This document shows, piece after piece, positions 1 through 63,334 of a stretch of 64,000 bases of DNA. Position 1 is the first letter of the stretch. Each line of letters begins with the position of its first letter. Below the pieces are notes generated by a model. It searched no databases. It was not told where the DNA came from and worked only from the letters and a program-made list of their open reading frames with translations. The translations under genes and the position numbers were made by a program. Origin of the DNA: Meghimatium bilineatum (Eukaryota; Mollusca; Gastropoda; Stylommatophora; Philomycidae); NCBI GenBank assembly GCA_034231615.1, contig CM067317.1:48675376-48739375 (forward strand), read 5' to 3'.

Positions 1-260
1 CCTAAAGGAAAGCAAAGAAAAGCAACACTGTTTACCTTCCACGCATGTCGTAAAAGGCGACTAAGGAGGTTATGGGATGGAGTTGGCTGTCTCATCCCAT
101 ATAGGGCCAGTGACCCAAAGCCATGCTGAAGTCGGATGTGTCATGAAGAAAGGCGCAAATATCGCAGCAATGCTGTAAACCATGTCATAACGCATTCTGT
201 TCTCCGGACTACATTCTGCTAATCTGCAGGAGTTTGAGAACGAACGCAGAAGAAGAAGAA
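1..260 (+). mobile_element. SINE-like element, main dispersed family, near full length
   Basis: This is one of at least six recognisable copies of the same roughly 260-bp element in the window. It reads from a purine-rich head (GCAAAG..AGCAACACTGTTTACC), through GGCGACTAAGGAGGTTATGGG and GAAGTCGGATGTGTC, to CAGGAGTTTGAGAACGAACG and a GAA-repeat tail ending at 260. Other copies lie at 16852, 33810 (minus), 42037, 51281 (minus, truncated) and 62709. It shows no tRNA-type A/B boxes. The tail and the CGGATGTGTC..AAAGGCGCA block resemble the 3' end and 5' leader of the LINE at 18058, so I infer mobilisation by that LINE. An 86-residue antisense ORF inside it is a by-product. Confidence 0.8.
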
Positions 261-16780: not shown

Positions 16781-16851
16781 AAACATATAAGATGTACACG
16801 GTGCACGCTCGCAAACATATTTATTCAACAAAAATTCCGCCCATGTTTTCG

Positions 16852-17117
16852 CCGAGGCTCGAAAGGGGAGCAAAGAATAGCAACACCGTTTACCTTCCAT
16901 GCATGTCGTAAAAGACGACTAAGGAGGTTATGGGACGGAGTTGGCTGTCCCATCCCATATAGGGTCAGTTACCCAAAACCATGCAGAAGTCGGATGTGTC
17001 AGGCCGAAAGGCACAGATATCGCAGCAATGTTGTAAACCATGACACAACGCATTCCGTTCTCCGATATACATCATGCTAATCTGCAGGAGTTTGAGAACG
17101 AACGCAGAAGAAGAAGA
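16852..17117 (+). mobile_element. SINE-like element, main family, best-preserved copy
   Basis: This copy runs from GAGGCTCGAAAGGGGAGC to GAACGAACGCAGAAGAAGAAG and contains every landmark of the family. The block GTCAGGCCGAAAGGC followed by ACAGATATCGCAGCAA closely resembles the 5' leader of the LINE at 18058 (CATCCAGCCAAAAGGCGCAC, AGATAATCAGG). I infer a composite of LINE leader and LINE tail. Confidence 0.85.
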
Positions 17118-17189
17118 TGAAGAAACATAAATCCTACACACAAAATATATTATATCGACATGTACGGTCGTAAACATATACTATGTAAT

Positions 17190-17589: not shown

Positions 17590-18057
17590 AATCTCACATC
17601 TCCATTATCTTCCAACTGGTTTACGGACAGTTATAACCACACACTTCCAACCGATTTACTGACAGTTATAACCACATACTTCCAACCGGTTTACGGTCAG
17701 TTATAAGCATACACTTCCAACCGATTTACGGACAATTATAAATAACCACATACTTCCAACCCGTTTACAGACAGTTATAACCACATACTTCCAACCCGTT
17801 TATAGACAGTTATAACCACATACTTCCAACCCGTTTACAGACAGTTATAACCACATACTTCCAACCCGCATACAGACAGTTATAACCACACACTTCCAAC
17901 CCGTTTACAGACAGTTATAACTACACACTTCCAACCGGTTTACGGACAGCTATAACCTCATACTTCCAACCCGCGTATAGACAGTTATAACCACACACTT
18001 CCAACCCGTTTACTGACAGTTATAACCACACACTTCCAACCGGTTTACGGACAGCTA
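17590..18057. repeat. minisatellite, 35-bp period, left segment, split by a LINE
   Basis: The unit is CACTTCCAACCCGTTTACAG followed by ACAGTTATAACCACA, with many CCGCGTAYAGA and CCGGTTTACGG variants. The array is interrupted at 18057 by the 4.05-kb LINE and resumes at 22111. The 11 bases ACGGACAGCTA (18047-18057) are repeated at 22111-22121 as the target duplication. Confidence 0.95.
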
Positions 18058-18132
18058 CTCCATCGAGACCAGCACCGTGCAGAGGTGATGGGGCTTAGTT
18101 CAGCCATCAGGGGCTGGAAACTAAGACTGGTC
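18058..18132 (+). ncRNA. candidate HDV-like self-cleaving ribozyme at the LINE 5' end
   Basis: Helices seen on paper are P1 18058-18064 with 18087-18093 (CTCCATC/GATGGGG, one U-G pair), P2 18067-18072 with 18127-18132 (GACCAG/CTGGTC, perfect), P3 18074-18076 with 18084-18086 (ACC/GGT) around a 7-nt L3, and P4 18101-18105 with 18112-18116 (CAGCC/GGCTG). The joining strand before P2' holds CTAAG, as in J4/2 of HDV-like ribozymes of other retrotransposons. The order P1-P2-P3-P1'-P4-P2' is the HDV nested pseudoknot. Its first base directly follows the target duplication, where such ribozymes cut. The first base is C rather than the usual G, and P1.1 is not evident. CTTAGTT after P1' could alternatively pair with AACTAAG. 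Confidence 0.6.
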
Positions 18133-18226
18133 GGGCAGTCCCACTCGAGCAGGACCATAGTCCTGCCCTAGTAAGCAGAGTGCTGAAGACGGAGGCATCC
18201 AGCCAAAAGGCGCACAGATAATCAGG

Positions 18227-21200
18227 ATGCCACGCACAAAACACAATGGAAACATGTCTACATCTATAAATAGTTATGGTGCCTGCCCTGTGGCGGACGT
18301 TCAGGCAGGGACGGTGCCGGGCCCTATACCTCGAAGGGGCCCAACCTCAGTTACTGGAAGTCCTTCTCAATTGCCCCGAGGAGCCAGGAGGCAAGGGAAT
18401 AAAGCTACTGGCCAAACAAACAAACGACCAATAAAAATAATGCACTGGAATGCTGAGGGTGTCAACAGTAAAAGATATGGATACAGCAAAAAATTGGAAC
18501 TTGAAAATGTCCTCAGTGAAGAACAAGTTAACATATGCTGTATCCAAGAAACACACATCAGCAGCGACATAGCCTTCAAAATCAGAGGCTACCAGTGCTA
18601 CCGATGTGACCGAAAGGACAGGCGAAAGGGTGGAATTCTGACACTTGTTAAAAACAATATCAGTGCATGTCAGCTGGAAGTATATATGGAAGGGGCAGAA
18701 TACCAGATGCTCCACCTAAAAACAGACAGTGCAGAATTCCATCTCCTGAACTACTACTGCCCAAATGATAAACCATTGGCACTAGACACAATTCCAGACA
18801 AAGAGAGACTTATGGTGTGTGGTGACTTCAACAGCCACTCTCAGAGCTGGGGCTACGATCATATCGACAAGAGAGGTGAGGAACTTGAGAGCTGGCAGGA
18901 TGAAAATAATCTCATCCTTATTAACCAGCCAGCTGACTCACCAACCTTCTACTCGAGAGCATGGCACACCACCTCTACACCAGATCTGGCATTCCACTCA
19001 CCAGGCCTGGAATGGAACATCACACGTGTCGTTGGAAAGCAGCTTGGGGGTAGTGACCACAGACCAGTATTTCTGGAAATCCACAATGAATTTACCAAGG
19101 ACAGCAGCACGCTCACTAGGTGGAACTATAAGAGGGCAGACTGGAAAATGTACCAGCATTTAACCAGTGTTCTAGCTAAGGACATGAACTTGGACAAAGA
19201 CATCAATAGAGCAGTGAGTGAATTTAATAAATGTATACTACATGCTGCTAGTAAAACCATACCCAGGGGAGCACGCAAAAACTACAAACCCTACTGGAAT
19301 GATGAACTGGAAAAGCTGCAAAATGAGATGGAAACATCTAGACAGCAGGCTGAGAACAGACCTAGCCAAGAACATCACAACAAATATCAGCAAACAAAGG
19401 CTAAATTTCAAAGAGCCAAGTTACAAGCCAGACGGAGTAGCTGGAAAGAAAAAACAGAGTCGCTGAACCTAGAAAGAGATACTAGGAAATTATGGAAACT
19501 TGTAAAACAACTAAATGATGAAGGTACATGGAGAAATACCAGGATCACACTTTATAAAGATAGAGACATTTTAACAGGTAAACATGCAGCTGATTACTTT
19601 GCAGATTCCTTTGCAGAAGACAATAACATCCAAGTCAGCCCAGACAAACAACAGGAGGTTCGAGAGAACCAGCAAAACATTGGACAAGGCGAACCTATAC
19701 CTGAAGTCATGGAGGCACCAATCACAATGAGAGAACTGGAGCATGCAATATCCAAATTGAAAATGAAAAAGTCCCCTGGAGCTGATGGAGTGTCCAATGA
19801 AATGATTAGAAACCTGGGAATTGCAGCAAGAGCAAAGCTACTGCAGATCTTTAACACAAGCTGGTCCACGGGTAATGTACCACAGGCGTGGAGAGAAGCA
19901 ATAATGATACCACTCCTCAAATCAGGAAAAGATGGCAACACAGTCTCCAACTACAGGCCCATCAGCCTCACAAGCTGTCTATGCAAAACAATGGAACGCA
20001 TTATCAATCTTAGGATGCAGTGGTACCTTGAAAGTGAAAACCTTCTGGTATCACAGCAAGCAGGTTTCAGACAGTGCTACTCTACTGAAGATCAGGCAAC
20101 CTACCTCTCCCAAGAGATTGAGGATGCCTTCCAAGAAAAGAAACTGGTACTAGCAGCATGGATAGACCTCAGGAAAGCATTTGATAAGGTCTGGAAAGAA
20201 GGGCTCCTAAAGAAATTGCGAAATTGCAGGGTTAGCTCAAGAATGTACAAATGGGTAAAAACATACCTGCATAATAGAAGAGCCAGGGTACAATTAGATG
20301 GTCGCAAGAGCAAGAAGGTTCTACTGCGTCATGGAGTCCCCCAGGGAGGAGTCCTGTCGCCCACACTTTTCTTGGTTTACATCAATGACCTAGTTGCTGA
20401 ACTACCACACGGGATCAAAGTGGCAATGTATGCTGACGACCTGGTGATCTGGTGCACAGAAGAACATGCGACAGTGGCCACTAAACAAATACAAAGAGCT
20501 ATCGATGCCCTAACCTTATGGGCTAATAGATGGTGCGTCAGCATTAACACAGATAAGTGCAGCACTACACTTTTTACTCTCTCACCAAAACAAAAAGCCG
20601 GTCATATTAAAATAGATGGAGAGCTCTTGAAAGAAGACAAACAACCCACATACCTCGGAGTTACTTTTGATGATAAACTGACATGGAAGCAGCACATAAA
20701 CAAAGCAACAACAAAAGCCAGGAGGAAGTTAGCTATCCTGAGAAAACTAAGTGGAACCACATGGGGAGCCAGTGGGAATATACTCAGTAAAGTTTACCAG
20801 CAAGGCATAAGACCACACCTGGAATATGGTTCAGCAGCATGGTGTCCTGCATCAAACACCACATTACAAGATCTAGATAAAGTGCAAAACCAGGCACTTA
20901 GAATAATGTTGGGAGCAATGAAATCAACACCCATAGCAGAGATGCAGAAAATGGGAAGAATGCAAACACTTGGCGAACGCAGAGACACAAAAGTACTAAT
21001 TCAGGCAGAAAAGTTTCATTGTATGCCAAGTCATCCAATGAAGGAGAGATTCCAAAATCTAGCAATGGGACGACTGAAAAGAAGCAGCTTTATCCATCAA
21101 GCTAAACGACTCCGCAGACAACTTACAGACCTACCTGAAGTTGACAGCCCCTTAAGGCCTGTACCAGAACAAACCCCGTGGAGTGAAAGGCATGGAATGC

Positions 21201-22076
21201 CAATATACATTCAGACCCATGTGAAAGGAATACTAAGTGAGGACGAACAGAACAGTGTGCAGAGAAGGACAGTCACCCTCAGTCTCCTGGATGAGGAATA
21301 TCCACAAGATATATGGGTCAGAGTATACACAGATGGGTCAGCACAGAATGCCGTGAGGAATGGAGGTGCAGGTGTATATATAGAATATCCACACAAGCCT
21401 AGAGATACAATCAGAACACCGACAGGAAAATTCTGCAATAATTATGATGCAGAAATCCAGGCAATTAGTGTGGCAGCTAAAAAACTGCTGAACTCCAACT
21501 CTGACCTACAGCCTGTGGTATTCCTGACAGATGCAAGGTCAGTGCTTCAAGCTCTCCAGTCTGGAAAACTAACAGACTTGAAAAAACTACTTAGCGAATT
21601 GTCTTACCAGTATAGGGTAACCATGCAGTGGATACCCTCTCACTGTGGAATACCAGGAAATGAAAAAGCAGACCAACTGGCTAAGGAAGGTGCTGCCGAA
21701 GACCAACCAGATATACCAATCACCTACCATCAGAAAAAACAGATGATCAAGTCAATAAGAAAGCCACAAACACCACCACAAGATGACTCATATTATGAAC
21801 AGACCAGAACAAGTTATAATTCTACGTCTCAGAACAGGACACAACAGACTCCGCAGTCACATGTATACAAAGTTCAAGATTGGCAACACAGCCATGTGTA
21901 CATGTGGACAGGCAGCACAGAGTGCCAAACATATACTTCAAGAGTGTTCTGAGCATGAAACTCTGAGGCAGACATATTGGCCAGAGGAAACAACACTGGA
22001 ATCAAAACTCTATGGGACACTGTATGAACTACAAAAGACAGTGAGTTTTATTAAGGAGACAGAATTACAGATATAG
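18227..22076 (+). CDS. LINE polyprotein: endonuclease, reverse transcriptase, RNase H (one frameshift)
   Basis: The protein makes and inserts DNA copies of its own RNA. The ATG at 18227 is the first in a frame open to 21952 (1241 codons). Visible domains are an APE-type endonuclease from about residue 70 (IMHWNAEGV, CIQETH, GDFNSH near 199, GGSDHRP near 277). The RT runs from about 500 to 860, with KKSPGADGVSNEM, AWIDLRKAFDKVW, HGVPQGGVLSPTLF and catalytic YADD near 735-738. The RNase H follows, with YTDGS near 1034, DAEIQ, LTDARS and EKADQLA giving all four D-E-D-D residues, plus IPSHCGIPGNEKADQ. Around 21785 the frame shifts. The true C-terminus lies in the next frame to 22076, with EQVIILRLRTGHNRL and a zinc-knuckle-like CTC..HILQEC. 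That single shift probably inactivates only the tail, or is a sequencing error. Confidence 0.92.
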
Positions 22077-22110
22077 ACATGTTTCAAGTGAACGAAAGAA
22101 GAAGAAGAAA

Positions 22111-22310
22111 ACGGACAGCTATAACCAGATACTTCCAACCCGCGTACAGACAGTAATAACCACACACTTCCAACCCGTTTACTGACAGTTATAACCACAC
22201 ACTTCCAACCACTTTACGAACAGCTATAACCACACACTTCTAACCGTTTTACGGACAGTTAAAACCACACACTTCTAACCGGTTTACGGACAGTTTACAT
22301 GACATATTAC
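22111..22310. repeat. minisatellite, 35-bp period, right segment
   Basis: This is the continuation of the array at 17590-18057 beyond the LINE, with the same CACTTCCAACC and ACAGTTATAACC words. Units degrade toward 22400. Confidence 0.92.
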
Positions 22311-23339: not shown

Positions 23340-23500
23340 ATATCAGGAAGATTGATTAGGGAGAATAGAGTGAAACTGTTGAGAAAGATTGATTAGGGAG
23401 AATAGAGTGAAACTGTTGAGAAAGATTGATGAGGGAGAATTGAGTGAAACGAGGAAGATTGATGAGGGAGAATAGATTGAAACTGTTGAGGATGATTGAT
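23340..23500. repeat. minisatellite, ~39-bp period, ~4 copies
   Basis: The unit has GAAAGATTGATTAGGGAGAA followed by TAGAGTGAAACTGTTGA. The third copy is shorter. The sister LINE begins directly after the array. Confidence 0.85.
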
Positions 23501-23576
23501 CCCCATCGAGGCCAGTTCCTTGACTTGGAGATGGGGGCTTAGTCCAGCCAACAGGGGCTGGAAACTAAGATTGGTC
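23501..23576 (+). ncRNA. second candidate HDV-like ribozyme (sister LINE)
   Basis: All helices of the 18058 candidate are kept. P1 is CCCCATC (23501-23507) with GATGGGG (23530-23536), now fully Watson-Crick. P2 is GGCCAG (23510-23515) with TTGGTC (23571-23576) using two G-U pairs. P3 is TCC with GGA (23517-23519/23527-23529), which covaries with ACC/GGT. P4 is CCAGCC with GGCTGG (23544-23549/23556-23561). The AAACTAAGA joiner is identical. L3 has the same length (7 nt) but a different sequence. Confidence 0.55.
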
Positions 23577-23613
23577 GGCCAACCCAATATCGAGTAGGGT
23601 CACAATCCTGCCC

Positions 23614-26412
23614 ATGCAAGCACAGGTGCTGAAGTCAGAGATGCCAGACCGAGAGGTGCACCAGCAATTATGGTATCATGCAAACAGAAAAGTTGACTTG
23701 TCTGCACGACAAAATTATAAAAATCGTCATGTTGCTCGCCCTGTGAAGTTCCCCCAGGCAGGAGCAGTGCCGGATTCTGAACCTCGACAGAATCTACCCC
23801 CAGCTACTGGAGGTCCCTCTAGTCTACCTCGTGAGCCAGGAGGCAGACGAGGAAAGCGACTGGCCAACCAGACAGGATGAAAACCCATCTGAATGTTATG
23901 CACTGGAATGCAGAGGGAGTTAGAAATAAAAAATCCTAACTCGAAAACACTTTGCACCAGAAATAAATTAGTATTTTCTGCATACAGGAAACCCATCTCA
24001 ACGAAAAAATAACATTCAAAATACGAGGGTACCAATTCTTTAGAGTAGACAGGAAAGATCGGAGGAAATGTGGCATACTAACTCTGGTCAAGGATAACAT
24101 CAACGCATTAGAAACGAAAACACAAGAGGAAGGCGCAGAATACCAGATGATTCCTATGAAAGACAATTCCCTTGAACTGGACATACTAAACTTCTACTGC
24201 CCAAATGACATCCCACTAAACATGACCAGTATTAACATCCCGAACAAAAACTTTCTGGCAGTCGGAGACTTTAAAACCACACCCAAAGCTGGGGATATAA
24301 CAATTTAGACAGAACGGGAGAAGAGATAGCAAGTTGGCAAGATGATAACAACCTAATCCTCCTGAACAATCCACAGGATCCACCAACTTTCTACTCAAGA
24401 AAATGGCATAGCACCTCAACCCCAGACCTGGCATTCTGCACCTCAGTACTGGCTGGAATAATGGAAAGAACAATAGGCGAACAACTTGGTGGCAGTGATC
24501 ACCGTCAAGTTATCATCAAAGTGAACAAATCAACAATTATAAGACCAACTAAGCCAAGATGGAACTTCTTGAGACTAACGGGAATTAAACAGTCCGTTCA
24601 ACGGCACCAAATCGCCTAGCAACTATTGAACACGCGTTCTTCCGTACTTGACTAACCGCATCTCCAAAAAAGATGCGATTTCATCAAGCCTTTCAAACGA
24701 TGCACACAAAGTCACCAGAACGGACCGATCTAGACAAGGCCTATTACAACAACAACAAACATCCCGTACAGGTATTGAAATGTCCTCAGTAACAACAAAC
24801 CTATAACATAATATCCGTATTAGTTATACAAGGGCCAATAGGTCTTCTTGTAAACATGGATAACTTGTATAAACAATTACTCGAAGCAAAATTGTATTGT
24901 CTATATATGTTATCCATGTTATCCATAAGAACGCGTGTTCAATAGTTGCTAGGCGATTTGGTGCCGTTGAACGGACTGGTTCTATTCCCGTTAATCTCAA
25001 GAATTTTTAAACATTGTTCTCTATCTTCCTACTTATATTTACTTGTATAAACAAGATGGAACTACAAGAAAGCAAACTGGTACATATATAAACATAGAGC
25101 AAACCTACTTACAAAAGACATAAAATTAACAGGCAGAGACATCAACACTATTATCATGGAGTTTAATAAAGGAATACTTCAGGCAGCTAAGGAGACAATA
25201 CTAAGAGAAGCAAGGAAGAATTATATACCATATTGGAACAATACACTCCAAAAACTACAGGAAGAACTGAATTAAGCACGTAATATGGCAGAGAAGTAAC
25301 CATCACAACAGAACCACATCGCTCTACAAAAAACCAAAGCAAAGTTTGTTAAAGAAAAATAGAAACAAAGAGACGAAGAGACGAAGCTGAAGGGAAAAAA
25401 CTCAAAACTAAATTTTGAAAAGGAAGGAGAAAGCTGTGAAAACTAACCAAGCAAATCAATGATGATAGCAATACCCAGCGACAAAAAATTACATTGGAGG
25501 ATTCAGGCAAACTCCACTGTGGCAAACAAGTAGCAGACAAACTTGCGGAATCTTACCGAAAAGAAAGCACAATTACCATCAATACATGTAGACAACGAAG
25601 CATTCGTCAAGAAATGAACAATGATAAGAACACAAACTGCCCAGACTATTCACAATAGAAGAATTAAAGGCATCTATAGGGAAATTAAAGGATAGAAAAT
25701 CACCAGGACCGGACGGTGTCACCAATGAAATGCTTAGGAACCTAGGACAGGCAGCAATGTACAAATTATTACAGATATATAACTATAGTGGGGAAACAGG
25801 TAATGTACCACATTCGTGGACAGAAGCGTTTATGTGTCCTATTATTAAAAAAAGCAAGGACAAACAGAAACCCGACAGTTATAGACCAATAAGTCTAACG
25901 AGTTGTGTCTGCAAGACAATGGAAAGGATGGTCAACAGAAGACTAAAGTGGTACCTAGAGTCAGAGAAGCTATTGGTGCCAGAACAAGCTGGGTTTAGAG
26001 AGTGTAACAGCACGAAGATCAAACAACATTCCTGTCCCAGATCATAGAAGATGCATTTCAAGAAAAGAAAAAAAGTTTTCAACCTATGGATACATCTTCA
26101 AAAAGCTTTCGACATGGTCTGGAAAGATGGACTGATAATAAAGCTGCAAAGAAACGGAATAGGGGGCAACATGAGCAAGTGGATCCGTTCCTTCCTACAC
26201 AGTAGGAAAGCAAGAGTTACCATGGAAGGATATAACAGCAAAAAAGCTCTTCTAAAACATGGAGTTCCTCAAGGCTCAGTATTGTCTCCAACTCTGTTTC
26301 TTGTCTTCATAAATGATATAATTTGTTAATTGCCACAACGTGTAAGAGTTGCAATGTACTCTGATGACTTGGTGGTGTGGTGTGTAGAAGAACATCTAAA
26401 GATCGCCAACAT
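23614..26412 (+). pseudogene. sister LINE polyprotein remnant
   Basis: The N-terminal part is open in 23614-23880 and matches the Pro/Gly/Arg-rich leader of the intact protein (PATGGPSSLPREPGGRRG). The endonuclease is broken into several frames. The RT is better preserved, in 25640-26412, with DRKSPGPDGVTNEMLRNLG, YRPISLTSCVCKTMERM, HGVPQGSVLSPTLFLVF and YSDD in place of YADD. The Ala-to-Ser change is tolerated in some RTs, but the many stops and the missing C-terminus make this a pseudogene. Confidence 0.85.
24567..25051. mobile_element. foldback SINE with divergent tRNA-like arms, copy 1
   Basis: A 485-bp insertion interrupts the sister LINE between two copies of CAAGATGGAACT (24555-24566 and 25052-25063). 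Its ends are inverted repeats of about 85 bp (for example CAGTCCGTTCAACGGCACC on the left and its complement on the right). The right arm contains GGTTCTATTCC at 24978, a B-box-like sequence, preceded by TTGCTAGGC. The left arm carries the same in the other direction. A unique 3' extension ends CTTCCTACTT.. as in the copy at 37518. The 12-bp duplication fits LINE-mediated insertion rather than a DNA transposase. Confidence 0.75.
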
Positions 26413-30129: not shown

Positions 30130-31365
30130 AGGGTGAAGTAATCCACCAGCTGACTAGGAAGCAATTAGCCACGAGGCGCACACACCAGCAATCAGGAACC
30201 GAGACACCAACCACCAACTGACAAGGATGCAACTAGCCACGAGGCGCACACACCAGCAATCAGGAACCGAGACACCAACCACCAACTGACAAGGAAGCAA
30301 CTAGCCACGAGGCGCACACACCAGCAATCAGGAACCGAGACACCAACCACCAACTGACAAGGAAGCAACTAGCCACGAGGCGCACACACCAGCAATCAGG
30401 AACCGAGACACCAACCACCAACTGACAAGGAAGCAACTAGCCACGAGGCGCACACACCAGCAATCAGGAACCGAGACACCAACCACCAACTGACAAGGAA
30501 GCAACTAGCCACGAGGCGCACACACCAGCAATCAGGAACCGAGACACCAACCACCAACTGACAAGGAAGCAACTAGCCACGAGGCGCACACACCAGCAAT
30601 CAGGAACCGAGACACCAACCACCAACTGACAAGGATGCAACTAGCCACGAGGCGCACACACCAGCAATAAGGAACCGAGACACCAACCACCAACTGACAA
30701 GGAAGCAACTAGCCACGAGGCGCACACACCAGCAATCAGGAACCGAGACACCAACCACCAACTGACAAGGAAGCAACTAGCCACGAGGCGCACACACCAG
30801 CAATCAGGAACCGAGACACCAACCACCAACTGACAAGGAAGCAACTAGCCACGAGGCGCACACACCAGCAATCAGGAACCGAGACACCAACCACCAACTG
30901 ACAAGGAAGCAACTAGCTACGAGGCGCACACACCAGCAATCAGGAACCGAGACACCAACCACCAACTGACAAGGAAGCAACTAGCCACGAGGCGCACACA
31001 CCAGCAATCAGGAACCGAGACACCAACCACCAACTGACAAGGATGCAACTAGCCACGAGGCGCACACACCAGCAATAAGGAACCGAGACACCAACCACCA
31101 ACTGACAAGGATGCAACTAGCCACGAGGCGCACACACCAGCAATAAGGAACCGAGACACCAACCACCAACTGACAAGGATGCAATTAGCCACGAGGCGCA
31201 CACACCAGCAATAAGGAACCGAGACACCAACCACCAACTGACAAGGAAGCAACTAGCCACGAGGCGCACACACCAGCAATCAGGAACCGAGACACCAACC
31301 ACCAACTGACAAGGATGCAACTAGCCACGAGGCGCACACACCAGCAATCAGGAACCGAGATATCA
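30130..31365. repeat. satellite, 68-bp period, ~18 near-identical copies
   Basis: The unit contains CCACCAACTGACAAGGAAGC, AACTAGCCACGAGGCGCACA, CACCAGCAATCAGGAACC and GAGACACCAA. The only common variants are GGAAGC/GGATGC and CAATCAGG/CAATAAGG, which cluster in blocks as expected from local unit duplication. 68 is not a multiple of three, so long frames arise only by chance of frame cycling. Confidence 0.97.
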
Positions 31366-42036: not shown

Positions 42037-42285
42037 TCGAGGTGCAAAGAATAGCAACATTGTTTGTATCCATGCATATCATACGAGGCGATTAAGGAGG
42101 TTCTGGAGTGGAGTTGGCTATCCCCTCTCATATATAGAGTCAAAGTGACGCAAAAGGCATGCTGAAGTAAGGTGTCAGGCAGAAAGGCGCAGATATGTAA
42201 ATCATGACAGCACATTCCTTTCTCTGAACTACATCCTAAAAATATGCAGGAGTTTAAGAACGAATATAAAAGAAGAAGAAGATGA
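42037..42285 (+). mobile_element. SINE-like element, main family, diverged copy
   Basis: GCAAAGAATAGCAACATTGT, GGCGATTAAGGAGGTTCTGG, CAGGCAGAAAGGCGCAGATA and GCAGGAGTTTAAGAACGAA follow in family order, with a short deletion after the AGATATG block. It ends AAAAGAAGAAGAAGATG. Confidence 0.82.
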
Positions 42286-42334
42286 ATGATAATTCACCAT
42301 GTCTCCACTGAATTCATTTAGGATAGATATGAAC

Positions 42335-46869: not shown

Positions 46870-46942
<73 letters not shown>
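46868..46942. repeat. (TA)n microsatellite inside the RT pseudogene
   Basis: About 35 TA units lie between the codons for SPLLF..I and the catalytic ADD region. The run creates spurious (IY)n frames. Confidence 0.95.
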
Positions 46943-48954: not shown

Positions 48955-50890
48955 TCTTCTTCTTCTACGTGTATTCTCAAATTCCTGCAGAATAGCAGCG
49001 TGTAATCTGGAGAACATTCTCAAATTCCTGAAGAATAGCAGCGTGTAATCTGGAGAACATTCTCAAATTCCTGCAGAATAGCAGCGTGTAATCTGGAGAA
49101 CATTCTCAAATTCCTGCAGAATAGCAGCGTGTAATCTGGAGAACATTCTCAAATTCCTGAAGAATAGCAGCGTGTAATCTGGAGAACATTCTCAAATTCC
49201 TGAAGAATAGCAGCGTGTAATCTGGAGAACATTCTCAAATTCCTGCAGAATAGCAGCGTGTAATCTGGAGAACATTCTTAAATTCCTGAAGAATAGTAGC
49301 ATGTAATCTGGAGAACATTCTCAAATTCCTGCAGAATAGCAGCGTGTAATCTGGAGAACATTCTCAAATTCCTGAAGAATATCACGATGTAGTCTTGAGA
49401 ACATTCTCAAATTCCTGCAGAATAGCAGCGTGTAATCTGGAGAACATTCTCAAATTTCTGCAGAATAGCAGCGTGTAATCTGGAGAACATTCTCAAATTC
49501 CTGAAGAATAGCAGCGTGTAATCTGGAGAACATTCTCAAATTCCTGCAGAATAGCAGCCTGTAATCTGGAGAACATTCTCAAATTCCTGAAGAATAGCAG
49601 CGTGTAATCTGGAGAACATTCTCAAATTCCTGCAGAATAGCAGCGTGTAATCTGGAGAACATTCTCAAATTCCTGAAGAATAGCAGCGTGTAATCTGGAG
49701 AACATTCTCAAATTCCTGAAGTATAGCAGCGTGTAATCTGGAGAACATTCTCAAATTCCTGAAGAATAGCAGCGTGTAATCTGGAGAACATTCTCAAATT
49801 CCTGAAGAATAGCAGCGTGTAATCTGGAGAACATTCTCAAATTCCTGCAGAATAGCAGCGTGTAATCTGGAGAACATTCTCAAATTCCTGCAGAATAGCA
49901 GCGTGTAATCTGGAGAACATTCTCAAATTCCTGCAAAATAGCAGCGTGTAATCTGGAGAACATTCTCAAATTCCTGCAGAATAGCAGCGTGTAATCTGGA
50001 GAACATTCTCAAATTCCTGCAGAATAGCAGCGTGTAATCTGGAGAACATTCTCAAACTCCTGCACAATATCAGGATGTAGTCTGGAGAACATTCTCAAAC
50101 TCCTGCACAATATCAGGATGTAGTCTTGAGAACATTCTCAAACTCCTGCACAATATCAGGATGTAGTCTTGAGAACATTCTCAAACTCCTGCACAATATC
50201 AGGATGTAGTCTTGAGAACATTCTCAAACTCCTGCACAATATCAGAATGTAGTCTTGAGAACATTCTCAAACTCCTGCACAATATCAGGATGTAGTCTTG
50301 AGAACATTCTCAAACTCCTGCACAATATCAGGATGTAGTCTTGAGAACATTCTCAAACTCCTGCACAATATCAGGATGTAGTCTTGAGAACATTCTCAAA
50401 CTCCTGCACAATATCAGGATGTAGTCTTGAGAACATTCTCAAACTCCTGCACAATATCAGGATGTAGTCTTGAGAACATTCTCAAACTCCTGCACAATAT
50501 CAGGATGTAGTCTTGAGAATATTCTCAAACTCCTGCACAATATCAGGATGTAGTCTTGAGAAACTATGTGATTTTCGTCATGGTTTATAACATTGTCGAT
50601 ATATCTGCACCTTTCGTCCTGTTACATATTCATGACTTCTTGGTCACTTTGATAACTTTTCAGAGGGGGTGACTTGATTATCAGAACCTCGACCTCCAAT
50701 AATTTTTTATGGATGTGAATCTCTGATATAACCAAATTGGACTTGTATCAGCAGTTAAAAAATATACTTCATTGTAGCTGGTACATTTTACTTCACGAAA
50801 TTCACCCTATAACCTGCTTAGTCACCTCATCCGACATGCGAAAAAAGGTAGACAGTGTAGTTATCCTCAGCTCACCTTCCGGTCACCTGC
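48955..50890 (-). mobile_element. SINE-like element, main family, swollen by an internal tandem array
   Basis: It begins on plus with TTCTTCTTCTACGTGTATTC, the complement of the GAA tail. After the array, GTCATGGTTTATAACATTG and ATATATCTGCACCTTTCGTC continue the SINE in order. CCTATAACCTGCTTAGTCAC and AGGTAGACAGTGTAGTTATC at 50800-50880 give its head. About 170 bp of other sequence lies in the middle (50630-50795). The repeats are therefore an expansion within this one copy. Confidence 0.82.
48975..50560. repeat. satellite, 43-bp period, ~37 copies, derived from the SINE tail
   Basis: Units on the left (to about 50050) contain CATTCTCAAATTCCTGCAGA and ATAGCAGCGTGTAATCTGGA. Units on the right contain TCAAACTCCTGCACAATATC and AGGATGTAGTCTTGAGAA. 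The change is abrupt, giving two homogeneous blocks. The intact SINE has TCTCAAACTCCTGCAGATTA and GCAGGATGTAGTCCGGAGAA once. Unit junctions form GAGAACATTCTC. Confidence 0.97.
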
Positions 50891-51621: not shown

Positions 51622-54260
51622 ATGAGGTCCGACAAGAGAGTGAGGGCGACGCTTTGCACAACTCTTCCTCACTTTAATCAAAATCCCCAGTCCAAGTCAT
51701 TATCACATTCACGAAAATTCACCCGAAGGGAAAAGCTTTTTCCACTGACTCTAGAAGCATGGAATGTACGCACACTCCTCGACAATGACTCTAACACAAA
51801 TAGACTGATTCGAAGAACAGCCCTGATTGGGAGAGAGTTAGCAAGGTACCATATTGACATAGCAGCTCTGAGTGAAACACGACTTGCTGGAGTCGGTCAG
51901 CTCTGTGAAAGAGTTGCAGGATATACATTATTTTGGAGAGGAAGAGATATTAAGGGAAGACGTGAAGCAGGAGTAGGCTTCGCCATTAAAACAACACTCG
52001 TTGGCAAACTAGCAGGCCCACAAAAGGCAATAAATGACCGCCTCATGACAGTAAAAATCCCCCTGCTCTCTGGTAAAAAATATGCAACAATCACCAGTGC
52101 GTATGCACCAACACTGACAAATCCAGAAGTTAATGATAAGTTCTATGATGAACTTCATGCAGCTATCAGTGCAGTTCCAAAAACTTATAAGCTCATATTA
52201 CTTGGAGACTTCAATGCAAGGGTGGGTAAAGACAATATCTCCTGGAACGGTGTAATAGGGAAATATGGAGTGGGTCAGTGCAACAACAATGGACTTCGTC
52301 TGTTACAAACTTGTGGCGAACATCACCTCCTCATTACCAACACCATATTTCAACTCGCAATCCGAAACCGGACCTCCTGGATGCACCCTCGATCAAAACA
52401 CTGGCATCTTATAGATTATATAATTGTAAGAAGAAAGGACCGCCAATATGTTCGAGTGACAAAATCCATGTGCGGTGCAGACTGCTGGACTGACCATCGT
52501 CTTATTTTGTCAAAACTAAGAATTCGCATACAGCCTGCCAGACGCCCACAAGGAAGCAAAGCAAAGAAATGTATAGACGTCAGAAAGTTATCAAATGTAA
52601 ACACACAACAGTCCCTAGCCTCTACTCTGGATGAATGTCTGAAATCTGCACAACTAGAGCAAGATGTAGATAGGAACTGGACATATCTGATCAAGCAAAT
52701 TTACGACACTGCTACTGAGGAACTAGGTCATTCTATCAAAAAACATAATGACTGGTTTGATGAGAATGATAATAAAATCAAAGATATGTTGGACGAAAAA
52801 CACCACCTTTTCAAAGCATACTTAAATGATCCAAAATCAATGTCTAAAAAAGAAGCACTCAATTGCAAACGGAAAATAGTTCAAAATAAACTACGCCATA
52901 TGAGGGACTCATGGCTGAATAAGAAAGCAGATGAGATACAAAGATTTGCAGACACAAACGATTTGAGAAACTTCTATGATGCACTTAAAATGTTATATGG
53001 CCCAACCTCATCAGGATCTTTTCCACTTCTCAATGCAAATGAAACACAACTAATCGTAGAAAAAGATAAAATCCTGCAGCGCTGGGTAGAACACTTTAAG
53101 CACATTTTGAATAACCCATCATCAATAAATGAAGAGGCTATCAACCGACTACCGCAGGTTCCTCGCAATGAAATGCTAGGTGACATCCCTACTTTGGAGG
53201 AAACTCGTAAAGCAGTTCATCAGCTTTCTAGTGGAAAAGCACCTGGCTCCGACTCAATACCAATCGAAATATACAAATATGGTGGTAAAAATCTTATTGA
53301 GAAACTTCACATAATTTTCTTTCCAACAGTAATGGAAAAGCGAAAAGATTCCACAAAATGTTAAGGATGCTACAATTATACACCTGTATAAACGTAAAGG
53401 GAACCGCCAGTCCTGTAACAACCATCGTGGTATCTCTCTACTGTCCATTGCTGGAAAGATATTTGCCAGAATCCTTTTGAACTGTCTTACATCTCATCTA
53501 AATGAAGGACTACTACCCGAAAGCCAATGTGGTTTCAGAAAAGAACGTGGAACAACTGATATGATCTTTGCTGAAAGACAGCTTCAAGAAAAATGTCAAG
53601 AACAACACTGTGACCTGTACACAGCATTCATAGACTTGACAAAAGCATTTGACACAGTAAGTAGAGAGGGTCTGTGGAAGATTCTGGCAAAGTATGGATG
53701 TCCACAGAAATTTATCTCAATGGTGCAGCAATTGCATGATGGAATGCAAGCTAGAGTTCAGGATGATGGAGAGGTATCTGAAAGATTTCCTGTCTCAAAT
53801 GGAGTAAAACAAGGATGTGTATTAGCACCTACCCTATTTAGCATCATGTTCTCTGCTATGTTGAATGATGCTTTCAGAGATCTAGACCTGGGAGTACACA
53901 TCACCTATAGCATAGACGGAAAATTGTTCAACCTTCGGCGGCTTCGAGCAAAAACCAAAGTTAAATCCCACACAATCAGGGATCTTCTATTTGCTGATGA
54001 CTGTGCCCTAAATGCCAACTCTGAGGCTGATCTACAATGTATTATAGACAGATTCTCCAAAGCCTGTACCAACTTTGGGCTTACCATTAACACAGAGAAA
54101 ACAGAAATCATATTACAACCAGCACTTGGCAAAAGCTATCTCTAGCCCTGCATAAAGGTAAATGGTGTAGCACTGAAAGTTGCGAATAGATTCACATATC
54201 TAGGCAGTACGTTATCACAAAATGCCATCGTTGATGATGAAGTGTATACAAGGATCAACA
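51622..54260 (+). mobile_element. RTE-like LINE, endonuclease plus most of RT, 3'-truncated
   Basis: The element holds an endonuclease, the RT and the first part of the C-terminal region. Similarity stops near 54260 after YLGSTLSQNAIVDDEVYTRI-type sequence, where the dispersed GACGTC repeat begins. The 5' limit is uncertain. I saw no TSD. Confidence 0.85.
51622..54260 (+). pseudogene. RTE-like endonuclease/reverse transcriptase, three lesions
   Basis: The first frame (51622-53364, 580 codons) has a complete APE-type endonuclease: LEAWNVRTL near residue 48, ALSETRL near 85, GDFNARVG near 195 and TDHRLIL near 290. The start of the RT follows (SSGKAPGSDSIPIEIYKYGG). Near 53310-53330 a frameshift and a TAA break it. 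The RT continues in the next frame, with NNHRGISLLSIAGKIFARIL, CGFRKERGTTDM, FIDLTKAFDTVSREGLW, NGVKQGCVLAPTLFSIMF and the catalytic FADD near 53992. A TAG at 54145 precedes the in-frame YLGSTLS block. Such proteins are often mislabelled as craniofacial development protein 2-like. This copy cannot be autonomous. Confidence 0.9.
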
Positions 54261-62708: not shown

Positions 62709-62945
62709 TGAAAGAAAAGAATAGCAACACTATTTACCTTCAAGGCCTGTCATAAGAGGCGACTAAGGAGGTTTTGAGGTGGAATTGGATACCCCATCCC
62801 ATATAGGGTCTACGTGACATATAAGTACTGCTGGTCAGATATGTCAGGATGAAAGGCGCATATATCACAGCTAAGCTGTAAACTATGACATAACGAATAT
62901 CGTTTTACGGATTACATTCTGCTAACTTGCAGGAGGTTGAGAACC
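62709..62945 (+). mobile_element. SINE-like element, main family, diverged copy
   Basis: AAAGAATAGCAACACTATTT, GGCGACTAAGGAGGTTTTGA, CCCATCCCATATAGGGTC and TTGCAGGAGGTTGAGAACCA occur in order. The GAA tail is lost. Confidence 0.82.
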
Positions 62946-63334
62946 AACGGTCAATAGATGCATAAAATATAGTTTAAGTACACGGTCAATAGCGACAACG
63001 GCAGACATGAAATATAGTTTAAGTACACGATCATTAGCGACAGTGGACATACATAAAATATAGTTTAAATACACGTTAAAAACGACAGCAGTCATATTTT
63101 AATTATAGTCCTACAATTAATAGCTGCAGCTAGCATAACTTTATTTCGAACTCAGAAGCTGCAGCACACCTGGCTTAAAGTCGCTGCAGCCAGCCTATTT
63201 TAATTACACAGCCATAATCTGCAGCTAACAGCTTAATAGTACATCCACTATCTGCACATCATTAAGTTATTCCCGTTCTCTTCAATACCCACTAATTATA
63301 TTGCTATATAAAGACCTACATTGAGGACGAAGCT
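62946..63334. repeat. three ~50-bp degenerate repeats, then unannotated sequence
   Basis: ATAAAATATAGTTTAAGTAC and ACGGTCAATAGCGACA recur at about 62950, 63010 and 63060. The following 250 bp hold GCTGCAGC-type palindromes and no gene. Confidence 0.6.

Follow-up and report, generated by a model that had tools for sequence, protein, structure and literature searches.

An HDV-like ribozyme candidate with a competing internal helix at the 5' end of a gastropod LINE

Introduction

Does the LINE that begins at position 18058 of this DNA carry, as its own first bases, a ribozyme that would set its 5' end? HDV-like ribozymes at the 5' ends of LINEs are established for R2, L1Tc and others, and they explain how elements that are transcribed from host promoters come to have defined 5' ends. 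HDV and HDV-like ribozymes have their helices in double-pseudoknot order and a J4/2 of the CNRA type, in which the catalytic C is followed by NRA, and a U and a G at their usual positions in L3 form a reverse wobble. A sequence-only reading of the window (the whole 64-kb stretch of DNA analysed here) had placed an HDV-like candidate at 18058-18132, exactly at the 5' end of a near-intact LINE. Here we examine the structure, the element that carries it and a second, diverged element in the same window.

Results

Two LINEs start directly after tandem arrays

LINE A (18058-22110, plus strand, the end being approximate) is a single-ORF non-LTR retrotransposon with a GAA-rich tail. Its ORF of 1241 aa (18227-21952, plus strand) encodes an endonuclease (EN), a reverse transcriptase (RT) and an RNase H. 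The C-terminal end of the LINE protein, which contains a cysteine-rich stretch, lies in a different frame that overlaps the end of the main one (21789-22073, plus strand) and, by comparison with the relative P0001, continues to 22073; LINE A therefore has one frame disruption. The description of the element as near-intact fits the 1241-aa EN/RT/RNase H frame but has to be qualified, as the element is incomplete by this one disruption.

The insertion site of LINE A is a 35-bp tandem array, the final bases of which (ACGGACAGCTA, 18047-18057) form the left target-site duplication. The right duplication (11 bp, ACGGACAGCTA, 22111-22121) is identical to it. Since an uninterrupted unit is visible in the 35-bp array, 18058 can be identified as the first non-array base, and the first base of P1 directly follows the duplication, as had been claimed.

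The Ingi clade is defined by a single ORF with EN, RT and RNase H together with a C-terminal cysteine motif. All of these parts are present in LINE A, with the cysteine stretch in the other frame, and LINE A is a gastropod I-superfamily LINE that, by its ORF architecture, probably belongs to Ingi. Among the best 120 of the 656 relatives of the LINE A protein, the proteins with a named source, and so the nearest named ones, come from snails, namely Bradybaena similaris (P0009, 75% identical to the query, of which it covers 86%) and Littorina saxatilis. Ingi elements are reported to be numerous in several gastropods, for example Plakobranchidae (PMC11203168), and the word "ribozyme" is absent from the main text of that paper. 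We also observed an N-terminal leader in the ORF (GAxPV...QAG..PGP...TG, encoded at 18275-18395; consensus from 22 sequences), which can be seen by eye in many of the listed relatives that extend that far and lies outside every Pfam match.

LINE B (23501-26407, plus strand) is a diverged relative of LINE A with several frame breaks. A different array, made of 37-bp units, ends at 23500, and the first base of LINE B, which is homologous to the start of LINE A, follows directly at 23501. C18058 and C23501 are thus both the first bases after tandem arrays, and the structure that they begin is compact and located at element +1, as in L1Tc/ingi-type ribozymes. Both complete 5' ends are located in minisatellite arrays, with units of 35 bp and 37 bp, a possible sign of target preference. 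A further LINE lies at 51622-54145; it has an endonuclease frame and, after it, an RT-like stretch spread over other frames, and its relationship to LINE A is only remote.

The first 75 bases can be drawn in HDV order

The structure at 18058-18132 lies on the plus strand and begins with the P1 5' strand CTCCATC (18058-18064), the predicted cleavage site being immediately before 18058. Its partner GATGGGG (18087-18093) completes a 7-bp P1 that includes one U-G pair. After the two bases of J1/2 (GA) comes the P2 5' strand GACCAG (18067-18072), which pairs over 6 bp with CTGGTC at the far end of the structure (18127-18132). The P3 hairpin ACC-(GTGCAGA)-GGT (18074-18086), whose 7-nt loop is L3, stands before the P1 3' strand, and the P1 3' strand is followed by J1.1/4 (CTTAGT, 18094-18099), the P4 hairpin TCAGCC-(ATCAGG)-GGCTGG (18100-18117) and J4/2 (AAACTAAGA, 18118-18126), in which C18121 is the presumed catalytic base by analogy with the HDV-like family. 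J1.1/4 is also complementary to J4/2, which would give a competing, extended P4. Downstream of the structure there is a 7-bp hairpin, GCAGGAC-(CATA)-GTCCTGC (18149-18166).

As had been proposed, complementarity for P1, P2, P3 and P4 is present in HDV order, and the perfect 6-bp P2 (GACCAG/CTGGTC), the 7-nt L3 and the CTAAG-containing J4/2 were all recovered. The order is that of a double pseudoknot with P1 at the 5' end, here as complementarity, and P2 occurs in none of six pseudoknot-free minimum-energy folds. The P2 strand is bulged out between P1 and P3, matching the requirement of HDV topology. CTAAG, which reads as a C followed by NRA, stands in J4/2 of both copies, and in four of the six minimum-energy folds its C is paired within the extended P4.

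Other parts deviate from the family. Measured against the usual positions, L3 of LINE A (GTGCAGA) has a G where the U is expected, with U and G both present at another spacing, and L3 of LINE B (TTGACTT) is without G at the usual place; the two loops differ at five of seven positions. P1.1 had been described as not obvious, and we found at most one pair (G22-C37, adjoining a U-U), which in LINE B can be formed only with an extra G outside the junction. A search with covariance models, which had been suggested as a check, returned no match to the HDV families of Rfam, either in the whole 64-kb window at gathering score or at the two 5' ends at E up to 10; such a match is supporting, not defining, for divergent members. 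The further objection that P1 starts with C falls, because the mapped products of L1Tc/ingi-clade ribozymes start at C1 (PMC4035085).

The L3 deviations make activity of the LINE A copy itself less certain. In R2 ribozymes, a conserved G of L3 forms a reverse wobble with a U and is important (PMC3774820), and R2 elements with changes at conserved L3 sites can be inactive in vitro, as described for the sow bug and for a Nasonia variant. It is possible, though doubtful, that an ancestor had an HDV-like ribozyme and that the LINE A copy and LINE B are both catalytically dead through different losses in L3, of the U in LINE A and of the G in LINE B, an account that overlaps our preferred one. The number of changed L3 positions and the several frame breaks of LINE B would agree with it. 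However, LINE A looks young, with identical 11-bp duplications and one frame disruption, and the spacing in L3 is variable among R2 ribozymes, including that of the jewel wasp, for which the predicted self-cleavage site was confirmed (PMC3774820).

The drawn pairs are preserved in LINE B

In the LINE B structure (23501-23576, plus strand), P1 is CCCCATC/GATGGGG with an additional G, P2 is GGCCAG/TTGGTC, P3 is TCC/GGA, and J4/2 contains CTAAGA. In an alignment of these two copies within the window, with gap columns left out of the identities, the first 75 bases are 83% identical, the next 34 bases 71% and the remaining 5' UTR 62%, and identity is 57-66% from there to 1 kb, that is, in the coding part of the first kilobase. 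An alignment of copies had been named as a test of the drawn helices, and with two copies all 22 drawn pairs are kept in LINE B, which has the same first base. From LINE A to LINE B, P1 changes from U-G to C-G at one pair, P2 from A-U to G-U and from G-C to G-U, P3 from A-U to U-A with both sides altered, and P4 from U-G to C-G. The downstream hairpin is likewise kept; three of its seven pairs differ between the copies, and one of these three differs on both sides.

When 13 substitutions with the matched transition/transversion mix were placed at random, P1-P4 survived in 117 of 400,000 trials. For each helix on its own, conditional on how many changes it carries, survival is unremarkable (0.32 for P2, 0.15 for P3, 0.57 for P1 and 0.58 for P4). 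In the ribozyme structure and the downstream hairpin together, 58 of 58 cells are paired, compared with 25-49% when the partners are slid by 1-3 columns; a letter-shuffle control, which has no power with two sequences, reached the observed value in 135 of 500 shuffles.

The pattern of changes bears on whether the conserved 5' stretch might be an internal promoter at the DNA level and not an RNA device. The Pr77 of L1Tc is described as both promoter and ribozyme and has CGTG at +25 to +28, and LINE A has CGTG at +19 to +22. LINE B, on the other hand, is without CGTG in that stretch, and the conservation tracks base pairing, with both sides changed in one ribozyme pair and in one pair of the downstream hairpin. 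As two-sided pair changes are not predicted by a promoter, we regard this explanation as improbable, and promoter activity could be an additional role of the stretch.

Matches by chance are rare

We wrote a strict descriptor (7-bp P1, perfect 6-bp P2, 3-bp P3, a P4 with 5 bp or more, and CNRA ahead of the P2 3' strand) and found a single match on both strands of the window, at 18058. The descriptor was fitted to the candidate after it had been seen, and its figures are therefore optimistic in that they overstate the surprise. Across 160 strands, each of 64 kb and simulated with a first-order Markov model, it matched 16 times, 146 strands being empty (~1.6e-6 per start position). After local dinucleotide shuffling of LINE A's first 110 bases, it matched at base 1 in 0 of 200,000 shuffles, and once in 200,000 when up to two G-U pairs were allowed in P2. 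The corresponding values for LINE B, which itself satisfies only the version that permits G-U in P2, were 1 and 6 of 200,000. With the hairpins given, a perfect 6-bp P2 match to the bases 3' of P4 arises by chance in ~1% of cases for LINE A (1813 and 2035 of 200,000) and a P2 match in 2.4-6.5% for LINE B, which is weaker evidence than that of LINE A.

Chance complementarity could appeal to the post hoc descriptor and to the background matched by its relaxed versions. The loosest version has, besides LINE A and LINE B, three starts on the plus strand and six on the minus strand of the window, against ~5.4 expected per strand, and a relaxed match at 46870 was rejected because it is an AT microsatellite. 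The strict shuffles of LINE A and the preservation of the pairs in a second, diverged element make chance very improbable.

A conserved helix competes with the double pseudoknot

The sequence-only reading had set a competing CTTAGTT/AACTAAG helix against its own proposal, and this point stands in a sharper form. CTTAGT of J1.1/4 and ACTAAG of J4/2 are identical in LINE A and LINE B and perfectly complementary, and the helix between them pairs, and so sequesters, the presumed catalytic C. In the six minimum-energy folds, calculated on pieces of LINE A and LINE B by a method that cannot show pseudoknots, the extended P4 appears in four and P1 in five.

RNAalifold applied to the two sequences chose a nested three-way junction (35 pairs, -39.5 kcal/mol) in which P2, P3 and the extended P4 are retained while P1 is absent. 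In this junction a helix between TCGA at 18063-18066 and a second TCGA farther downstream stacks on P2, and the arms are P3 and the extended P4. The 5' end might then be a conserved, non-catalytic UTR structure that serves RNP assembly, translation or RNA stability, and the HDV drawing a by-product of it. This structure needs no pseudoknot to cover P2, P3, the extended P4 and the downstream hairpin, and it also accounts for the conservation of CTTAGT. For the first 113 nt of LINE A it is more stable than the fold with P1, P3 and the extended P4 (-40.1 versus -35.8 kcal/mol), and its outer TCGA helix has a pair probability of 0.78-0.90.

However, the minimum for the same 113 nt is a third fold at -45.6 kcal/mol, and P2, which the nested structure includes, has a pair probability of only 0.06-0.07, as does P1. 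In LINE B the outer helix has a pair probability near 0; in the alignment register the three-way fold has -32.2 and the P1 fold -32.8 kcal/mol, and the minimum-energy fold (-41.8 kcal/mol) contains the P1 hairpin and the extended P4. The nested fold also leaves unexplained why, in both elements, the first seven bases pair with the seven that follow P3, and why this 7-bp P1 is placed exactly at the first base. It could just as well represent a ribozyme's off state: for L1Tc, a conversion of the ribozyme to a three-helix structure on transcription of the downstream region has been proposed (PMC4035085). We therefore consider a purely non-catalytic role rather unlikely.

Relatives and repeats

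We found no LINE relatives in a viral contig collection, where none of 18 pattern-matching stretches encodes a relative. A genome contig collection yielded four remote RT loci. Only one of them (L001) has a long match, and it contains no match to the relaxed descriptor; the other three (L002, L003 and L004) have 3, 1 and 4 rows, which we read as background. The translated ribozyme frame had no match in a protein search, and looking by eye for the translated ribozyme sequence in the N-terminal extensions of the best 120 of 656 relatives was uninformative.

The window also contains a SINE family, with copies at 16838-17120 (+), 34088-33808 (-), 4-259 (+), 62713-62949 (+) and 42041-42292 (+) and a fragment at 51425-51281 (-). 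The middle of the SINE (GCTGAAGTCGG...) is similar to positions 18181-18219 in the LINE A 5' UTR (E = 0.001). The 3' end of the SINE (GAACGAACGCAGAAGAAGAA) is similar to the LINE A tail, and because of these resemblances the SINE may be mobilised by LINE A or partly derived from it. The SINE motif GTCGT-AAAAG-ACGAC-TAAG was considered as a P4 with J4/2 and rejected, as an HDV order could not be drawn by eye and none of the descriptor matches starts in the listed copies. Repeated stretches at 48955-50600 (-) and 30149-31353 (+), with spacings of ~43 bp and ~68 bp, show similarity to part of the SINE and, weakly, to the LINE 5' UTR (E 0.07-1.4).

Discussion

The position, the complementarity and the pair conservation in two elements lead us to a candidate HDV-like ribozyme, L1Tc/ingi in style, in this gastropod LINE family of the I superfamily (probably Ingi). 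On balance this reading appears probable, with cleavage predicted from the sequence. The nested fold ignores P1, and the HDV order needs no CTTAGT; a ribozyme with an alternative off fold would bring all of these features together in one explanation.

LINE A shares with the HDV family the double-pseudoknot order and the CNRA-type J4/2, and differs from it in that P1 starts with C, P1.1 is weak and Rfam gives no match. R2 differs from LINE A in its protein architecture. Like R2, LINE A has HDV topology at a LINE 5' end, where in R2 it releases the element from a co-transcript (PMC3774820); unlike LINE A, R2 inserts in 28S rDNA, its J1/4 is 0-2 nt compared with 6 nt for J1.1/4 of LINE A, and its L3 keeps the conserved G that pairs with a U (PMC3774820). 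The L1TcRz or Pr77-hallmark ribozymes belong to trypanosomatid elements of the L1Tc/ingi clade (PMC4035085; PMC4748587), the Pr77 5'-end primer of L1Tc starting with CCCTGG, and their active constructs are 78-94 nt long and cleave before C1 (PMC4035085). As in these, the LINE A structure is compact, is 5'-terminal on an EN/RT/RNase H LINE, has C as its first base and can be folded in an HDV-like way, and downstream sequence is predicted to be able to switch the fold. The screen for L1Tc/ingi ribozymes used target duplications of 7-11 nt, and that of LINE A is 11 bp. In contrast to them, LINE A has a gastropod host and a J1.1/4 that is complementary to J4/2. The likeness is thus drawn from position, first base, size and predicted folding.

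In the mechanism that we propose, the element would be transcribed within a longer host RNA, and its first 75 nt would fold into the double pseudoknot of P1, P2, P3 and P4. A cut immediately before C18058 would then release an RNA whose 5' end is the first base of the element itself. Such a release would account for the exactly matching start of the two copies whose 5' ends are complete. After the cut, or when P2 is unformed, CTTAGT of J1.1/4 would pair with ACTAAG of J4/2, and downstream sequence may rebuild a three-helix fold that inactivates the ribozyme and keeps the 5' UTR structured.

Among the literature matches listed, which lie mostly outside the subscription literature, no title or abstract opening describes an HDV-like ribozyme in an Ingi element of a gastropod or other animal. 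A wider and distinctly tentative idea, unlikely on present evidence, is that ingi-type LINEs of animals and trypanosomes have in common a two-state RNA, which cuts at the first base and then locks itself through J1.1/4 and J4/2 into a three-helix 5' UTR. If this is true, the ribozyme with its switch would be an inherited module of the ingi lineage that is older than the split of the hosts. The 5' end of LINE A is a candidate addition to the established HDV-like ribozymes at LINE 5' ends. If it is active, the L1Tc/ingi type of ribozyme would reach beyond trypanosomatids into a LINE family of a gastropod, and LINE A would provide a natural example of a ribozyme that carries its own off-helix.
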